Origin: Thermanaerosceptrum fracticalcis
GTDB taxonomy: Bacteria > Bacillota > Peptococcia > DRI-13
Direction: 5' to 3'
Assembly (NCBI RefSeq): GCF_000746025.2
Contig: NZ_CP045798.1
Location: 1,164,501-1,228,500 of the forward strand
Length of the DNA stretch: 64,000 nt
The notes below the pieces were generated by a model that was not told the DNA's origin, searched no databases, and saw nothing but the letters and a program-made list of their open reading frames with translations. The translations under genes and the position numbers were made by a program. This document shows positions 5,299-59,412 of the stretch, piece after piece (positions within the stretch are counted from its first letter, which is position 1; each line of letters opens with the position of its first letter).

Positions 5299-5385
5299 TA
5301 TTTCTGTCCTCCCATCTTTTGTCTCATATTTATCTTTCCTTATCCAGCCCTGCCTTACAACGCCACGCGATATCTTTTTATACAA

Positions 5386-5507
5386 CTTCCGATATCCGCT
5401 TTCCGATATTCCGAGTTTAATTTATTTCTAGTCCATGTTCTAGCACAGCATTGTAGGAAGTCGTCCAGTAGGCGGTCGGTTGTCGGAAATCGGTTAACGG
5501 TTCACGT
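5386..5507. repeat. Degenerate heptamer repeat element (copy 1)
   Basis: Two heptamer arms flank a core. Left: TTCCGAT 5387, ATCCGCT 5394, TTCCGAT 5401, ATTCCGA 5408. Right: CAGTAGG 5466, CGGTCGG 5473, TTGTCGG 5480, AAATCGG 5487, TTAACGG 5494. The arms are roughly reverse complements. The core 5412-5462 is about 80% identical to 22501-22551. It lies between ftsY and smc. Confidence 0.8.
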
Positions 5508-10930: not shown

Positions 10931-10955
10931 TGCTTACATCCTCCTGACATGTGAA

Positions 10956-11169
10956 GACCGACATCCGATATCCGATATCCGACTTCCGAGCATCAGATTT
11001 GGGTGACCAGAGACCAGTGTCCGGAGTCCGGCTCCTGTATGAGTGACCAGAGCCCAGTGTCCAGTGTCCGGTTAATTTACTGGTCACGGGTCACCGGTCA
11101 CTGATATCTGCCAACTACCAACTGCGAACTCAATTCTACTAATAACTAAGAACTAGTAACTACCAACTA
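10956..11169. repeat. Long mixed heptamer repeat region (copy 2)
   Basis: The clearest mixed array. In exact 7-base steps: GACCGAC 10956, ATCCGAT 10963, ATCCGAT 10970, ATCCGAC 10977, TTCCGAG 10984. Then a GACCAGA/GTCCGGA type near 11004-11032 and again 11043-11071, a GGTCACG/GGTCACC/GGTCACT type near 11082-11103, CCAACTA/CCAACTG near 11111, and AATAACT/AAGAACT/AGTAACT/ACCAACT to about 11169. At least five unit families stand side by side, all with period 7. No coding potential seen. Confidence 0.8.
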
Positions 11170-11173
11170 AGAA

Positions 11174-11190
11174 GGAGGCTTATCGCCTCC
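11174..11190 (-). terminator. Hairpin terminator after fabF
   Basis: GGAGGC (11174-11179) pairs with GCCTCC (11185-11190), directly beyond the fabF stop at 11197; on the minus strand it is followed by TTCTTAG. The U-tract is weak, so termination may be partial and allow read-through to rnc. Confidence 0.5.
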
Positions 11191-21151: not shown

Positions 21152-22423
21152 ATGAATATTGCCGGTATTATTGCCGAATACAACCCCTTCCACCTGGGTC
21201 ATTTGTATCACCTGCAAGAAACAAGAAAAAAGACGGCCGCCGAAGGGATTATTTGTGTAATGAGCGGTCATTTTGTGCAGCGTGGTGAACCTTCTCTTGT
21301 CAATAAATGGGCCAGAGCCGAAATGGCCCTGGCCCACGGCGCAGATCTGGTCCTGGAATTACCCGCCCTTTATGCCACGAGGAGCGCCTACTGGTTTGCC
21401 AGGGGCGGGGTGGAAACCCTGGCCCATACCGGCATAGTGACCCACCTCTCCTTCGGGGTAGAAGCATTAGAACCGGAAGTTCTGGAAAAGGCCGCCGGGT
21501 TGTTAGCCCAGGAAACTTCCGACTTCCAGGCGAACTTAAAGAACTTTCTAGACGAAGGCCTGTCCTTTCCGAAAGCCAGAGCCCAGGCTTTGTCCTTAAA
21601 AATACCCGAGGGAGAAGGAATTTGGCATCAGCCCAACATCATCTTAGCCCTCTCCTATTTACGAACCATCAAAGAAAAAAAACTGGCCATCAAACCAGTG
21701 ATCATTGAGCGTCAGGGGGCAGGTTACCATGATAAAAACTTAATCCCCGGAAAATATGCCAGTGCTTCAGCTATACGGGAAGAGCTGTTTAAGGCCCCAG
21801 AGCCTAAGGAGGTTTCCCTTAAAAAAGTGGAGGAATTTTTACCCCAGGCCGCAATCACAATTCTCCACAGGGAATTCGCTGCAGGCCGGGGCCCCCTTTC
21901 CCTGGAAGATTTTGCTCCTCAACTGCTGACCCTTTTGAGGCGAAGTGAATTACTGGAACTACAAAGGATTATTGATATCAAAGAAGGATTGGAGAACCGT
22001 ATCCGGTCAGCAGCTAATACTGCTACAAGTATCCGGGATTTTTTAACTAAACTTAAAACCAAAAGGTATACCTATACCCGTTTACAGCGTTTTCTCATCC
22101 ATCTTCTATTGAATTACACCATGGATAAAGAAGCATACCTGGCAGAAGGGCCCCCTTATCTCCGTGTACTAGGTTTTACCTCCCAGGGACGTAAGCTTTT
22201 AAAAATAATAAAAGGGAACTCCCCGCTACCCGTTATCACCAAAGGGGGCCATGCCCAAAAATATCTTACAAACTGTAAAAATTTCAGCACCTTCTGGGAA
22301 ATGGAGATAAAGGCCACCAATCTCTACACTCTACTCTATTCAGAGCCCAAACAAAGATTGGGAAATTTAGATTATCTGAAAGGCCCCGTTTATATCCCCG
22401 ACAACCGCCATCCGATATCTTAA
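21152..22423 (+). CDS. tmcAL: tRNA(Met) cytidine acetate ligase
   Basis: 423 residues (YlbM). Makes acetyl-AMP from acetate and acetylates the wobble cytidine of elongator tRNA-Met. N-terminal nucleotidyltransferase motifs EYNPFHLGHLYHL and MSGHFVQRGEPSLVNKWARAEMAL; GTDLVLELP-like GADLVLELP follows. Divergent from pta across 174 bases. AAGGAGGTC lies 13 bases before the ATG, an unusually long spacing. The final codons RHPIS and stop are made of heptamer repeat sequence, so the C-terminus appears to have been rewritten by a repeat. Confidence 0.9.
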   Translation: MNIAGIIAEYNPFHLGHLYHLQETRKKTAAEGIICVMSGHFVQRGEPSLVNKWARAEMALAHGADLVLELPALYATRSAYWFARGGVETLAHTGIVTHLSFGVEALEPEVLEKAAGLLAQETSDFQANLKNFLDEGLSFPKARAQALSLKIPEGEGIWHQPNIILALSYLRTIKEKKLAIKPVIIERQGAGYHDKNLIPGKYASASAIREELFKAPEPKEVSLKKVEEFLPQAAITILHREFAAGRGPLSLEDFAPQLLTLLRRSELLELQRIIDIKEGLENRIRSAANTATSIRDFLTKLKTKRYTYTRLQRFLIHLLLNYTMDKEAYLAEGPPYLRVLGFTSQGRKLLKIIKGNSPLPVITKGGHAQKYLTNCKNFSTFWEMEIKATNLYTLLYSEPKQRLGNLDYLKGPVYIPDNRHPIS

Positions 22424-22607
22424 TACGATTTCCGATATCCGTTTTCGTTATCCGATGTCTTTTTTTGACGAATACGACTTCGCCTCCCGCATCCGACGTC
22501 CGAGTTTAATTGCTTCCTAGTTCATGCTCTAGCAAAACATTATCGGAAGTCGGCAGTCGGAGAGCGGAAGTCGGTTAACAGTTCACTGTTCACGGTTAAC
22601 GGTTAAC
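22409..22607. repeat. Composite heptamer repeat element (copy 3)
   Basis: Fills the convergent gap between tmcAL and ylbK and overlaps both stop codons. Left arm CCGATAT-type units from 22410; then a non-heptamer block at 22457-22489 that is almost identical to 47071-47102; a core at 22501-22551 shared with copy 1; then right-arm CGG units (CGGAAGT, CGGCAGT, CGGTTAA, CGGTTAA) to 22607. Confidence 0.85.
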
Positions 22608-23394
22608 AATTATGCTTTGGGGCAAAACCTTCAATTACTCTTTTGATTAACTCTATTTTATTTTCCGCAGCAAGCCTGCCTCTTTTTATACATTCCCCGG
22701 CTTTGGAAAAATCAGCAGTAGAAATATCGCTAACATCAGGGTTGATGATAACATCACACAACTCAAGACAGGGTTTACAGGCTTCTCTCTCCATAATTTC
22801 AATGGACTGCATAATGACGGCATAGATATTATTAATTTCTATTTTTTGAGGTGACCAGAGCTTTACATCAACGCCGATAATAATATCCGCTCCCATTTCT
22901 TTCAAAATACCCACAGGAAGCCTTTCCGTCACGGCGCCGTCTACCAATAGTCTATCATTGATACAAACAGGGTTGAAAACACCGGGTACTGACATGCTGG
23001 CCCGTACAGCGGAGGCCACATCCCCTTCACGGAAAATGACCTTTTCACCTCTTTCGATATCTGTAGCCACGATGGCCAAGGGTATATTCAGTTCGGAAAA
23101 TTTTTTGTTGTGGGTGAGTAAACGAATAATGGCCATAGCATTATCCCCTTTTAAGAGACCGAGCCTGGGCAAGTTTACATCAAGAAAAAGTGCCTGGTTG
23201 AGGTTAAGAGCCAGTTTCTCCATTAATTGCAAATCTGCCCCGGCTGCATAGGCGGCACCGATGATGGCGCCCATACTGGAACCTGCAATCATATCGATAG
23301 GAATATTCTCATTGGTTAAAACCTGTAAAACCCCTATATGGGCTAATCCCTTGGCTCCACCAGCCCCCAAAGCCAGCCCGATTTTTGGACGCAT
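22603..23394 (-). CDS. Patatin-like phospholipase/esterase (RssA/YlbK type)
   Basis: 263 residues. Catalytic dyad motifs of patatins: glycine-rich LALGAGGAKGLAHIG, nucleophile GSSMG, and the aspartate in LLVDGAV. Bacterial YlbK/RssA proteins are cytosolic and their substrate is not known. The ATG at 23394 (MRPKIGLAL) is preferred because AGGTGA lies six bases before it. The stop codon lies in repeat sequence. Divergent from ylbJ, as in Bacillus where ylbK and ylbJ are neighbours. Confidence 0.85.
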   Translation of the reverse strand: MRPKIGLALGAGGAKGLAHIGVLQVLTNENIPIDMIAGSSMGAIIGAAYAAGADLQLMEKLALNLNQALFLDVNLPRLGLLKGDNAMAIIRLLTHNKKFSELNIPLAIVATDIERGEKVIFREGDVASAVRASMSVPGVFNPVCINDRLLVDGAVTERLPVGILKEMGADIIIGVDVKLWSPQKIEINNIYAVIMQSIEIMEREACKPCLELCDVIINPDVSDISTADFSKAGECIKRGRLAAENKIELIKRVIEGFAPKHNC

Positions 23395-24813: not shown

Positions 24814-24878
24814 TTATTGCAAAATATAACGACTCTATAGTATGTTACAGCAAAGAACATTAATATATGTTATATGTT

Positions 24879-24913
24879 CGGTGATCGGGACACGGTGATC
24901 GGAGAACGGAGTT
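24879..24913. repeat. Five-unit heptamer array (copy 4)
   Basis: Five uninterrupted units in frame: CGGTGAT 24879, CGGGACA 24886, CGGTGAT 24893, CGGAGAA 24900, CGGAGTT 24907. It ends one base before the stop codon of the next gene. Confidence 0.8.
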
Positions 24914-26500: not shown

Positions 26501-27487
26501 ATGCAAAAAAGCGAACTTTATAAATTAATGGGTATTAAACTGGACCTTGCCGTGGAAGCCCATGAAATCCTTAGGGGTGAAGTGGGCAGGGAAATCCCCG
26601 GCGTAAAAATGGACGAAGAGCGTTATGAAAATGCTGTGGTCAAGACCATTACCATTTTAGACGAGCAAGGCGCCCAGATTATGGGCCGGGCTCCCGGTAC
26701 TTATGTAACTCTGGAGTCAAGGGAAATTCGTGACAACAATAAAATGGTACATAAACAGATAGGTGAAATTCTCGCTAATAAACTAAAAGAAATCCTTCCT
26801 TTAAGAGAAGATTCTACCGTATTAATTGTAGGCTTGGGTAACTGGAACGCCACACCCGATGCTTTGGGGCCAAAAGTAGTAGAATTGTCTATGGCCACAC
26901 GTCATCTATTCCATTATGCCCCGGAAGAACTGCGGCAGGGCTTGCGTTCCGTATGCGTGTTAGCTCCCGGAGTTTTAGGCTTAACGGGTATTGAAACGGC
27001 AGAAATTATCAAAGGTACCGTGGACCGCGTCCAGCCTGACCTTGTGATTTGCATAGACGCCCTGGCAGCAGGAAGTGTGGAGCGAATAAATTCTTCTCTC
27101 CAGGTAGCTACTACCGGTATCAACCCTGGGTCGGGCGTAGGCAATAAACGCATAGGTATTAATCAGGAAACCATGGGTGTACCTGTGGTGGCTATTGGTG
27201 TACCGACGGTAGTTCATGCCGGTATTATCGCCCACCAGGCAATGGAGAAATTATTTAATCATTTACAAACCACGCCTGCCTTACAAGATGTCTATCATGC
27301 CCTGAGACCAGTAGCTGTTAATGAAATGATTAATGATGTTTTGGAACCTTTCGGCGGCCAACTCATGGTTACACCTAAAGAGATCGATGAACAAATCAGC
27401 AACACGGCAAGAATTATTGCCATGGCCTTGGCGATGGCCTTACACCCGGGAATGCCTGAAGATGAGGTAGAACATTACTTGCACTGA
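26501..27487 (+). CDS. gpr: Germination protease GPR
   Basis: 328-residue aspartic-type endoprotease that degrades SASPs at germination. The self-processing region LDLAVEAHE at residues 14-22, VVKTITILDE, NWNATPDALGPKVV and CIDALAAGSVERI follow the GPR pattern. Preceded by GAAGGAGGTTAAAAAGC. It converges on genes for its own substrates, the SASPs at 27613 and 27866, which share a bidirectional terminator with it. The stop codon is the first part of a heptamer array. Confidence 0.95.
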   Translation: MQKSELYKLMGIKLDLAVEAHEILRGEVGREIPGVKMDEERYENAVVKTITILDEQGAQIMGRAPGTYVTLESREIRDNNKMVHKQIGEILANKLKEILPLREDSTVLIVGLGNWNATPDALGPKVVELSMATRHLFHYAPEELRQGLRSVCVLAPGVLGLTGIETAEIIKGTVDRVQPDLVICIDALAAGSVERINSSLQVATTGINPGSGVGNKRIGINQETMGVPVVAIGVPTVVHAGIIAHQAMEKLFNHLQTTPALQDVYHALRPVAVNEMINDVLEPFGGQLMVTPKEIDEQISNTARIIAMALAMALHPGMPEDEVEHYLH

Positions 27488-27612: not shown

Positions 27613-27828
27613 TTAGAATTGTTGACCTTTAGCCAGAGCCTCTTCGGCGAACTGGACCATCTTTCTGGTCATATAACCTCCCACATAACCGTTTTGACGG
27701 GAAGTGAGCTGGCCTTTGTCGATTTGTGCATAGTTGGTCAAACCTAATTCACTGGCAATTTCAAACTTTAGTCTGTCCAGACCTTGAGCAGCGCCTTGAA
27801 CAGCAGGAGTATTGGTGTTTCTTGGCAT
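27613..27828 (-). CDS. Alpha/beta-type small acid-soluble spore protein 1
   Basis: 71 residues. Protects spore DNA. The GPR cleavage region KFEIASELGL and the second conserved block NGYVGGYMTRKMVQFAEEAL are complete. Lies 37 bases downstream of a near-identical paralogue, probably in one transcript. Confidence 0.95.
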   Translation of the reverse strand: MPRNTNTPAVQGAAQGLDRLKFEIASELGLTNYAQIDKGQLTSRQNGYVGGYMTRKMVQFAEEALAKGQQF

Positions 27829-27865
27829 TGATTATTCACCTCCTTTCAAGCGTAAAACACACCAA

Positions 27866-28081
27866 TTAAAATTGCTGACCCTTAGCCAGAGCCTCTTCGG
27901 CGAACTGAACCATCTTTCTGGTCATATAGCCACCAACATAACCGTTTTGACGGGAAGTGAGTTGACCTTTATCAATTTCGGCATAGTTGGCGAGTCCTAA
28001 TTCACTGGCAATTTCATACTTTAATCTGTCTAATCCGGGAGCGGCACCTTGCACAGCGGGTTTATTTCTATTACGTGGCAT
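27866..28081 (-). CDS. Alpha/beta-type small acid-soluble spore protein 2
   Basis: 71 residues from the ATG at 28081, which has AAGGAGGTGA eight bases upstream; the longer frame to 28093 is unlikely. Contains KYEIASELGL and the same C-terminal half as SASP 1, from which it differs mainly in the first 35 residues. A tandem duplication. Confidence 0.95.
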   Translation of the reverse strand: MPRNRNKPAVQGAAPGLDRLKYEIASELGLANYAEIDKGQLTSRQNGYVGGYMTRKMVQFAEEALAKGQQF

Positions 28082-28114
28082 TGCTGGTGTCACCTCCTTC
28101 TCTTTGACTAGTCT

Positions 28115-30744: not shown

Positions 30745-30803
30745 GGTCATCACACTCCTTACCTTACAATATTCTACGTTAGAGGAGTTGTTCCTGCAGA
30801 GTG

Positions 30804-30907
30804 AGTTACTAGTTACTAGTTATTAGTTATTAGTGGTTTAAGGTCTTCTGACCCCAAAGAATACGTTTAAAAAACACTAGTAACTAGGAACTAATAACTA
30901 GTAACTA
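30804..30907. repeat. Heptamer element with inverted arms (copy 6)
   Basis: Left arm AGTTACT 30804, AGTTACT 30811, AGTTATT 30818, AGTTATT 30825. Right arm CACTAGT 30875, AACTAGG 30882, AACTAAT 30889, AACTAGT 30896, AACTA 30903, the reverse complement type. A 40-base middle separates them, so the whole could fold into a long hairpin like a miniature inverted-repeat element. Confidence 0.85.
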
Positions 30908-45022: not shown

Positions 45023-45214
45023 ATGTCATTCAAATGCGACGTTTGCGGCAAAGGTAAAGCTACCGGTATGCAGGTTAGTCACTCCCACATCAGAACAAAA
45101 AAGACCTGGTCACCTAACCTTCAACCTGTGCGGGCTATCGTTAACGGTACTCCTAAAAAATTAAGAGTGTGCACTCGCTGCCTCCGTTCCGGTAAGATAC
45201 AAAGGGCCATCTAA
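45023..45214 (+). CDS. rpmB: Ribosomal protein bL28
   Basis: 63 residues from ATG 45023, eight bases after AAGGAGGTGG. MSFKCDVCGKGKATGMQVSHS start; paired cysteines CDVC and CTRC make this the zinc-containing form. The stop codon lies in a heptamer unit. Confidence 0.95.
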   Translation: MSFKCDVCGKGKATGMQVSHSHIRTKKTWSPNLQPVRAIVNGTPKKLRVCTRCLRSGKIQRAI

Positions 45215-45280
45215 TAGTTGTTAGTTGGCAGTAGGCAGTGATTTGTGAGTTACTAGTTACTAGTTATTAGTTTCTAGTGA
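45212..45280. repeat. Heptamer array starting at the rpmB stop codon (copy 8a)
   Basis: TAATAGT 45212, TGTTAGT 45219, TGGCAGT 45226, AGGCAGT 45233, GATTTGT 45240, then one extra base and AGTTACT 45248, AGTTACT 45255, AGTTATT 45262, AGTTTCT 45269. Gradual change of unit sequence along one array. Confidence 0.8.
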
Positions 45281-45313
45281 AATTAAATTTAAGTATTTTT
45301 ATTACTTCTAAAT

Positions 45314-45340
45314 AAAGAAGCGGGATTGTCCCGCTTCTTT
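45314..45340. terminator. Bidirectional terminator between rpmB and hslO
   Basis: Perfect 12-bp stem AAAGAAGCGGGA/TCCCGCTTCTTT with a three-base loop, then T-rich on the plus strand. Confidence 0.9.
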
Positions 45341-45370
45341 TATTTGTTCTCCCATTCACGCTACTAACAC

Positions 45371-45412
45371 GTCGGAATTCGGAAAGCGGACGTCGGATAT
45401 CGCTAATAGCTT
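45371..45412. repeat. Heptamer array running into the hslO stop codon (copy 8b)
   Basis: GTCGGAA 45371, TTCGGAA 45378, AGCGGAC 45385, GTCGGAT 45392, ATCGCTA 45399, ATAGCTT 45406. The stop and last two codons of hslO (45403-45411) are repeat sequence. Confidence 0.75.
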
Positions 45413-46287
45413 CTAATTTCCTCCAGCAAAGCCTCAATCTCCTCCCGGGAAAAGTGATACTGCTTGTTGCAAAAATGGCAGCGCAGCTCGGCGCCCTGCT
45501 CTTTCTCCAGCATATCTTTCAATTCTTCGGGCCCCAGGCTGATTAAGATTTTTTCCAGGCGTTCTTTCCCGCAGCGACACAAGAAACGCCAGTCTTCTTC
45601 CGCCAGTACTTCAAAAGGGATGTTGCCAAAAACCTTCTGTAAAATCTCAACTTCCTGGAACCCATCGGCAATGAGATTGGTAACAGGTGGTACCTCCCCA
45701 ATGTTTTTTTCGAGCTGAGCGAGGGTGTCTTCTTGGGCTCCGGGAAAGGCCTGGATAAAATATCCCCCTGCTGCAATGCAAGTATGGTCCCGGTCAATTA
45801 ACACTCCCAGAGCAACGACAGCAGGAGTTTGTTCCGACTGGTGAAGAAAATAGGCAAAGTCTTCGGCAATTTCCCCACTGACCAGTGGGCTGCTCCCTGT
45901 ATAAGGTTCTTTAAGACCTAAGTCTTTGGTAACATAGATAAATCCATCCTTGCCCACAGCTCTTCCCACATCCAGTTTGCCCTGGGATGTAGGCGGCAGA
46001 TGGACATGGGGTTCCTGCACATATCCACGTACGGAGTAATTGGCATCGGCCTGGGTAATAATGCCTCCCAGGGGACCATCGCCGAAAATGCGGACTGTAA
46101 GGGTATCCTCACCTTTAAGATTCAGTCCCAAAAACATTGTCCCAATCAGTGCCCTTCCCAAGGCCGCGGTAGCCGTTGGCGAGGTCTCATGGCATCGTCT
46201 TGCCGTTTCTACCAGTTCTGTGGCTATACAGGCCGCTGCTCTTATGGAACCGTCCCGGGTAGCGGCCCGGATCAACCTGTTATGCAA
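45403..46287 (-). CDS. hslO: Redox-regulated chaperone Hsp33
   Basis: 294 residues, TTG start seven bases after AAGGAGGGT. The C-terminal redox switch has CRCGKERL and CHFCNKQY (CXC and CXXC) that bind zinc when reduced. N-terminal substrate-binding region with GRALIGTMFLGLNLKGE. The last residues RSY come from repeat DNA. Confidence 0.94.
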   Translation of the reverse strand: MHNRLIRAATRDGSIRAAACIATELVETARRCHETSPTATAALGRALIGTMFLGLNLKGEDTLTVRIFGDGPLGGIITQADANYSVRGYVQEPHVHLPPTSQGKLDVGRAVGKDGFIYVTKDLGLKEPYTGSSPLVSGEIAEDFAYFLHQSEQTPAVVALGVLIDRDHTCIAAGGYFIQAFPGAQEDTLAQLEKNIGEVPPVTNLIADGFQEVEILQKVFGNIPFEVLAEEDWRFLCRCGKERLEKILISLGPEELKDMLEKEQGAELRCHFCNKQYHFSREEIEALLEEIRSY

Positions 46288-46985: not shown

Positions 46986-47297
46986 AGTTGATAGTTGTTA
47001 AGTAAGTTACTAGTTACTATTTATTAGTTGCTATTTGCTAGTAAATCAATATCCGCTTTCCGATATCCGATGTCTTTTTTGACGAATACGGCTTCGCCTC
47101 CCGATATCCGACTTCCGACGTCCCAAGAATTAATATTATGTATCTTTGAAGTAGAACTATCATTATCGGCGGTTGGTTGTCAGAAATCGGTTAACGGTTC
47201 ACGGTTTACGGTTAACGATTATGCTTAGGTGGCAAAACCTTCATTCTGATTGATAATTTCAGGGTATTTTCGGAAAGCGGATGTCGGAAATCGTATA
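46986..47297. repeat. Largest composite heptamer element (copy 9)
   Basis: Fills the thiN-rpe gap. Segment 1 (46986-47042): GTTACTA/TTTATTA/GTTGCTA/TTTGCTA units. Segment 2 (47048-47125): TCCGCTT/TCCGATA units, interrupted by a block 47071-47102 nearly identical to 22457-22489. Segment 3 (47165-47217): TCAGAAA TCGGTTA-type and CGGTTCA, CGGTTTA, CGGTTAA units. Segment 4 (47218-47246): a copy of the 3' end of ylbK. Segment 5 (47270-47293): CGGAAAG, CGGATGT, CGGAAAT. Confidence 0.85.
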
Positions 47298-59286: not shown

Positions 59287-59331
59287 ACCTTTTCTCCCTT
59301 TATTGAGATTAATTCTTAGTTAATTATAACA

Positions 59332-59380
59332 TAGTTGCTAGTTATTAGTTACTAGTTACTAGTTATTAGTTATTAGATAA
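59332..59380. repeat. Seven-unit heptamer array (copy 10)
   Basis: TAGTTGC 59332, TAGTTAT 59339, TAGTTAC 59346, TAGTTAC 59353, TAGTTAT 59360, TAGTTAT 59367, TAGATAA 59374. The most regular array in the window, between metK and priA. Confidence 0.9.
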
Positions 59381-59412
59381 ACCTGATTGTGGATATCGTC
59401 ATGGGTTCGACT

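Follow-up and report, generated by a model that had tools for sequence, protein, structure and literature searches.

Tandem repeats with a 7-nt unit have been described in several bacterial groups. Direct repeats of TAACTGA are found in marine Beggiatoaceae, Cyanobacteria and Bacteroidetes, and the roles proposed for them in Beggiatoaceae include protein binding or RNA structures (PMC4679880). According to the summary of Mrazek et al. (2007) given in the same paper, heptanucleotides were the most abundant of the simple repeats with units of 5–11 nt in most genomes examined, and polymerase slippage was proposed as the cause (PMC4679880). Further examples are the STRR heptanucleotides of Calothrix and Nostoc and the GGGNATC/GGGGAYT repeats of Xanthomonas and Nostoc (PMC4692102). 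Our literature search, which covered sources outside subscription journals, found no description of heptamer repeats in Firmicutes.

The segment analysed here, 46986–47297, lies in a 64,000-nt stretch of DNA (the window). In the original prediction this segment, 22409–22607 and 5386–5507 were three sites of one mobile unit of ∼ 200 bp. The underlying similarities were confirmed: 47071–47102 is near-identical to 22457–22489 (30 of 34 alignment columns), and 5412–5462, described as about 80% identical to 22501–22551, matches it at 42 of 51 positions (82%). The three loci are, however, pieces of a genome-wide, imperfect patchwork built almost entirely of 7-base units and not one 200-base jumping element. 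Segment 46986–47297 is a mosaic in which degenerate heptanucleotide arrays of the GTTACTA, CCGATAT/GGAAGTC and GGTTAAC types surround a short hairpin and a ∼ 40-nt spacer. Read in sevens, it runs from AGTTACT-type units through ATCCGCT TTCCGAT ATCCGAT, a T-run, the hairpin, CCGATAT units and the spacer to GGTTGTC...GGTTAAC GGTTCAC GGTTTAC GGTTAAC:

47005..47042, plus strand: degenerate heptamer array of the GTTACTA type, 5.4 units (TRF, lag-7 scan).
47050..47074, plus strand: left arm of ATCCGCT/TTCCGAT/ATCCGAT heptamers (sequence, family alignment).
47075..47098, plus strand: T-run and short hairpin module GACGAA-TACGGC-TTCGCC (same module in at least 12 loci).
47099..47122, plus strand: inner left arm, CCGATATCCGACTTCCGACGTC (sequence, family alignment).
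47123..47164, no strand: spacer, a variant of type B, AATTAATRTGTATTATCTTTG... (comparison with loci L035, L040 and L044).
47165..47217, plus strand: right arm or array of GGTTGTC, GGTTAAC, GGTTCAC and GGTTTAC heptamers (lag-7 scan, TRF).
47218..47266, plus strand: block D, the right end of a second interspersed repeat family (copies beside unrelated genes).
47267..47296, plus strand: further GGATGTC/GGAAATC heptamers, reaching the rpe terminator (sequence).

The T-run/hairpin module of this kind folds as a hairpin in related copies. The boundaries of the three loci are arbitrary, the true units being heptamer arrays that also occur elsewhere in the window:

5368..5507, plus strand: core copy between ftsY and smc that has spacer A but lacks the hairpin module.
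10940..11180, no strand: near-continuous heptamer array across the rnc-fabF gap (lag-7 scan, TRF).
22412..22609, plus strand: core-A copy between the convergent genes tmcAL and ylbK (sequence, family alignment).
22603..22634, plus strand: short block-D copy, which forms the last codons of ylbK (minus strand).
24863..24912, no strand: heptamer array with a 7-nt indel relative to the sister genome (−7 at 24864; lag-7 scan).
30790..30907, no strand: inverted pair of GTTACTA arrays giving a long hairpin, DNA fold z −5.4 (lag-7 scan, TRF, folding).
45211..45420, no strand: terminator-like hairpin with heptamer arrays to either side (lag-7 scan).
59313..59396, plus strand: TAGTTAC/TAGTTAT array lying upstream of priA and missing from the sister genome (lag-7 scan, TRF).

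The 22412..22609 copy consists of a left arm, a hairpin (22460–22484), spacer A (22504–22542), a right arm and a GGTTAAC array; the units at 10940..11180 are of the types CCGATAT, CCAGTGT, GGTCACC, CAACTAC and ACTAATA.

When the window was scanned for self-similarity at lags 3 to 30, lag 7 marked nine regions and every other lag two at most; ten Markov simulations produced no lag-7 region. All nine are intergenic, although some extend into the last codons of a neighbouring gene, and arrays often lie beside terminators or directly after stop codons. Two 20-kb stretches picked for density only contained no lag-7 regions, whereas two stretches picked as repeat-bearing had eight and twelve; the arrays are therefore unevenly spread. 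In arrays of 77 bp or more, the identity between units at lags 7 to 63 was 0.62, 0.55, 0.49, 0.44, 0.41, 0.38, 0.36, 0.32 and 0.31, compared with 0.16–0.29 at lags other than multiples of 7; after ∼ 8 units the per-position identity within arrays has fallen to the between-array level. A decay this smooth with distance is the mark of stepwise local duplication and would be expected had each unit arisen as a copy of its neighbour and later mutated; for a conserved binding site the curve would be flat.

The arrays share with LSSR and STRR repeats a head-to-tail arrangement of 7-nt units, as seen in the lag scans, TRF and the simulations, and a unit number that varies between close relatives, as seen in the 7-nt indels relative to the sister species. 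Adjacent units, at ∼ 62% identity in arrays of 77 bp or more, fall short of the near-perfect units of typical heptanucleotide tandem repeats, for which reason we treat the system as a variant rather than a plain member of that kind. A few arrays are nearly perfect, e.g. that at L123:4836–4888, which has 7.6 TAGTTAC units, lies beside a fructose-bisphosphate aldolase-like gene and possibly represents the youngest kind of array. The same locus contains, at L123:1332–2102 (G000:C1:2485831–2486601, G000 being the genome of the window), a 109-bp unit that is itself built of CCGAYNN/CGGATAG heptamers and is repeated seven times in tandem, the copies being 97% alike; they lie upstream of a DUF2062-like ORF, adjoin glpX and are a higher-order array grown out of heptamers.

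Most units fit a single weight matrix, RNYWWCY, the commonest being AGTAACT, GTTAACC, ACCAACT, AACAACT and GACTTCC. The TAACTGA repeats, which are likewise intergenic heptamer tandem repeats with a patchy distribution over distant phyla, conform to the same pattern in the register GATAACT, a unit that is not among the 60 commonest here. They consist of one nearly invariant word, with related heptamers rarely repeated, whereas in this genome many degenerate words blend into one another, arms are opposed, and hairpin and spacer modules are embedded between them. With the STRR and GGGNATC repeats the arrays have in common the 7-nt unit, the genome-wide occurrence and the over-representation in non-coding DNA; the GGGNATC types are rich in G and capable of G-quadruplex formation, while the units described here contain no G-runs. 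The 7-nt unit as the commonest longer class and the proposal of slippage link them to the survey of Mrazek et al. as summarised elsewhere; that survey dealt with long simple repeats, a class that may or may not take in arrays as degenerate as these. Short length, intergenic position, opposed folding repeats and tens of copies also recall MITE and REP/BIME elements, but here neither fixed ends nor target duplication nor a linked Y1 transposase was seen, and the arms are tandem heptamers. Since the comparisons turned up neither target duplication nor a fixed right end nor a linked transposase, we class the system not with MITE or REP elements but as a variant of the known bacterial heptamer repeats (TAACTGA, STRR, GGGNATC).

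Integron attC sites have the consensus RYYYAAC/GTTRRRY, which the heptamer units do not fit, and were rejected as a candidate. A known structured RNA family was rejected as well, since Rfam models matched nothing but tRNAs, in L121, when the window and six loci with repeats were scanned.

The family is real and genome-wide. With the 312-bp segment as query, the genome (a single contig of 3.8 Mb) gave 52 places at E ≤ 0.001, far above chance, among them the 22409 locus (2e-21 over 195 positions) and the locus at 5.5 kb (1e-9); the 22409 stretch as query gave another 52. The core copies align over ∼ 150 columns with a mean column identity of 82% (core A, 12 copies) and share the order left CCGAYWT arm, T-run, hairpin GGCGAA-TACGGC-TTCGCC, inner arm, spacer, opposed TCGGAAG arm and GGTTAAC units, often followed by CAACTAA units. 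The same arms enclose at least three spacers that are unrelated to one another:

Spacer type A: GTTTAATTGCTTCCTAGTCCATGTTCTAGTACAGCATTG
Spacer type B: ATTAATGTGTATTATCTTTG...
Spacer type C: ...AAATCTGCTAGCAAGATGTT...

The spacers also differ among the three loci of the original prediction, and the arms, being heptamer arrays, are present at sites devoid of a core; no single ∼ 200-bp element with fixed ends describes them. A covariance model of core A detected, at 60 bits or more, 23 matches in this genome and three in the sister genome, where incomplete assembly (an 80% complete draft) may explain part of the absence, and none in seven other heptamer-bearing Firmicutes genomes. Ten of the 23 strong matches fall within G000:C1:2230000–2580000, an interval picked after the fact that covers ∼ 350 kb (9% of the chromosome) and lies ∼ 100–450 kb from dnaA at 2.67 Mb.

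Among 398 sampled genomes of the phylum, three successive YRGTTRY units were found in 16, with 169 matches in the genome of the window and abundance in only three others (G195, G148 and G385). The corresponding CGGWWNW pattern was found in six, with 60 matches in the genome of the window, where neither reversed control had any. In stretches of six pattern-bearing genomes lag 7 was again the dominant period, with partly different words; having been fetched for a pattern hit, these stretches do not measure how frequent period-7 arrays are. In L072, from an unrelated genome of the phylum (G147), the stretch CCGTAAACAGTGACCAGAGACCGGTGACCGAAGCACTAGTAACTAATAACTAGTAAC shows a mixture of unit words almost as here. 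No period-7 arrays were found in the loci L010–L012 of three relatives.

The sister genome, G001, is a draft metagenome bin, 80% complete, which is ∼ 94–98% identical over most of the window, excluding the poorly matching 28–43 kb part; site-by-site comparisons with it do not depend on the completeness of the draft. Indels are about ten times as dense in arrays as elsewhere (∼ 9 vs ∼ 0.8 per kb), and a size of exactly 7 nt was seen for 5 of 17 indels in arrays but for 1 of 44 outside them (Fisher p about 0.005). The rnc-fabF array (10940..11180), for instance, shows −7 and +7, the ylbK site +7 and +7, and position 24864 shows −7. Some orthologous sites lack an entire array or core, and one of them carries a different heptamer array in its place. 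The sister lacks the core at 47040–47175, including the spacer 47123..47164, the 5386–5507 copy (its ftsY-smc site is 33 bp long) and the 59313–59396 array. The original reading was right that this is an interspersed repeat family, and its copies do differ between sister species; the 22409 copy is present in the sister.

Gain or loss at these sites can be polarised only where other families provide the empty state. In other families of the order the stop codons of tmcAL and ylbK are overlapping or adjacent (six genomes), whereas 179 bp of repeat separates them here, and the rpe-thiN gap measures 14 and 53 bp in two relatives vs ∼ 357 bp here. More distant relatives thus lack the family at the same sites, and its further copies within the genome are numerous, as the original reading had required. 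Since the neighbouring genes overlap or nearly touch in other families, the arrays are insertions, which have grown into gene gaps in this genus.

The original prediction took the stretch at 47218–47246 for a copy of the 3' end of ylbK. A stretch resembling that end is indeed present, but copying out of ylbK was rejected: block D also occurs beside unrelated genes (L053, L055, L064, L065, L119–L122 and L124), and the GFAPKHNC tail was not found in ylbK orthologues of other families, which align only to residue ∼ 253–263 of 266 and then differ. The last codons and stops of both tmcAL (...RHPIS) and ylbK (...GFAPKHNC) fall within repeat sequence. Given that the orthologues end differently, that the stops overlap or abut elsewhere and that the genes end in the repeat, we conclude that ylbK gained its end from the repeat, the tail belonging to the second repeat family. 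Apparent copied gene ends or shared blocks in such genomes may accordingly be recruited repeat sequence. The second interspersed repeat, ∼ 250 bp long in L120, L122 and L124, has its own hairpin, and short block-D forms adjoin GGTTAAC arrays at several sites. In L119–L122 and L124 (up to ∼ 250 bp) this repeat contains the hairpin CCCTCAACAGTCC...GGACTGTTGAGGG and the right end TTTCAGGGTA, which is block D; the L121 copy lies after five clustered tRNA genes.

We consider it probable that this is a locally amplified, degenerate heptamer system produced by 7-nt replication slippage together with exchange between dispersed arrays. Its basis is the 7-nt step, the greatest likeness between neighbouring units, the 7-nt indels between sister species and the gene gaps that are absent in distant relatives. 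Arrays would grow and shrink through slipped-strand replication in 7-nt steps and diverge by mutation, and would lie chiefly in non-coding gaps, since these tolerate them. Because dispersed arrays share arms, ectopic recombination or gene conversion could transfer the embedded hairpin and spacer modules (cores A, B and C, and block D) from array to array, which would yield composite loci such as 46986–47297, 22409–22607 and 5386–5507. The L019 and L030 sites speak for such module exchange: there the sister retains one arm but has other heptamer sequence in place of core A, and both junctions lie at one and the same point. The arrays probably have no function or an incidental one, as stop codons, spacers beside terminators or transcript hairpins. 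Slippage produces neither non-repetitive spacers nor ∼ 150-bp core copies that are 80–90% identical; these call for the second process, exchange, which we infer rather than observe directly. Nor does slippage alone predict the shared RNYWWCY grammar, and the excess of strong core copies over the sister genome (23 vs 3) would fit transposition as well.

Transposition of a non-autonomous element of ∼ 150 bp (MITE- or REP/BIME-like), with a transposase acting in trans and the arms as decayed terminal inverted repeats, is less likely. It would account for that excess, for the 82% per-column identity of the 12 core-A copies with their opposed, folding arms, and for the core missing at some orthologous sites. 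It also gains from the two sister comparisons, at L019 and L030, in which the left junction is at the same point, CCG^ACGTC. At L019, however, the sister retains one arm and has a different heptamer array in the middle instead of core A, and at L030 it retains the left arm and then diverges, the right flank not being homologous. Arms thus exist in the sister without the core, and they serve at least three unrelated spacers; opposed heptamer arms are present, but the right ends vary, exact 7-nt indels are enriched in the arrays, and the sister comparisons, which offered no precise empty site, showed no target-site duplication. A link to REP-associated tyrosine transposases was rejected, as neither a heptamer array nor a match to the element lies next to any of the five Y1_Tnp genes of this genome. 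At L030/L065 the left flank is orthologous and the right-hand genes differ between the sister genomes, which suggests that the heptamer array there marks a rearrangement breakpoint.

We think it improbable that the arrays are selected cis-elements that act on mRNA stability, termination or translation through a bound protein or an RNA structure. The intergenic position, often beside terminators or directly after stop codons, and the common RNYWWCY grammar of many units would agree with such a role, as would some strong hairpins: 30790–30907 was the strongest fold (z −5.4), and two core-A copies folded better than nearly all shuffles (z −3.2 and −2.9). A third copy did not (z −1.2), and the remaining tested loci were ordinary. 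Binding constraint would, moreover, have kept unit similarity flat instead of letting it decay within ∼ 8 units, and content turns over at the same sites between sister species.

A dedicated or shared molecular ruler is similarly doubtful. On that reading, copying in 7-nt steps would lead unrelated lineages to build period-7 intergenic arrays with overlapping unit words independently, because the geometry of one enzyme or polymerase would set the length of the unit as well as its grammar (a purine at the start, C plus a pyrimidine at the end), and such arrays would then serve as platforms for the exchange of hairpin modules. Assembly artefact or chance low-complexity similarity is scarcely credible, as, although assemblies commonly go wrong at repeats and the sister genome is a draft bin, the same arrays occupy orthologous sites with ∼ 94–98% identical flanks in two independent assemblies and the reversed patterns gave zero matches in this genome against 169 and 60 real ones.

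This genus offers a clear natural setting in which to ask why the copying of bacterial DNA stutters by sevens, with many stages side by side: perfect, drifting and hairpin-joined arrays, 7-nt steps gained or lost between sister species, and neighbouring genes moved apart relative to other families. As period 7 and overlapping words recur in a few unrelated Firmicutes, the 7-nt step is testable by genome comparison. Another repeat in the window consists of two tandem copies of ∼ 253 bp (83% identical) at 27613–28099, in the gap after an ORF ending at 27487 that we take, from its sequence, to be a GPR-like germination protease gene; the two copies are possibly tandem genes for small acid-soluble spore proteins.
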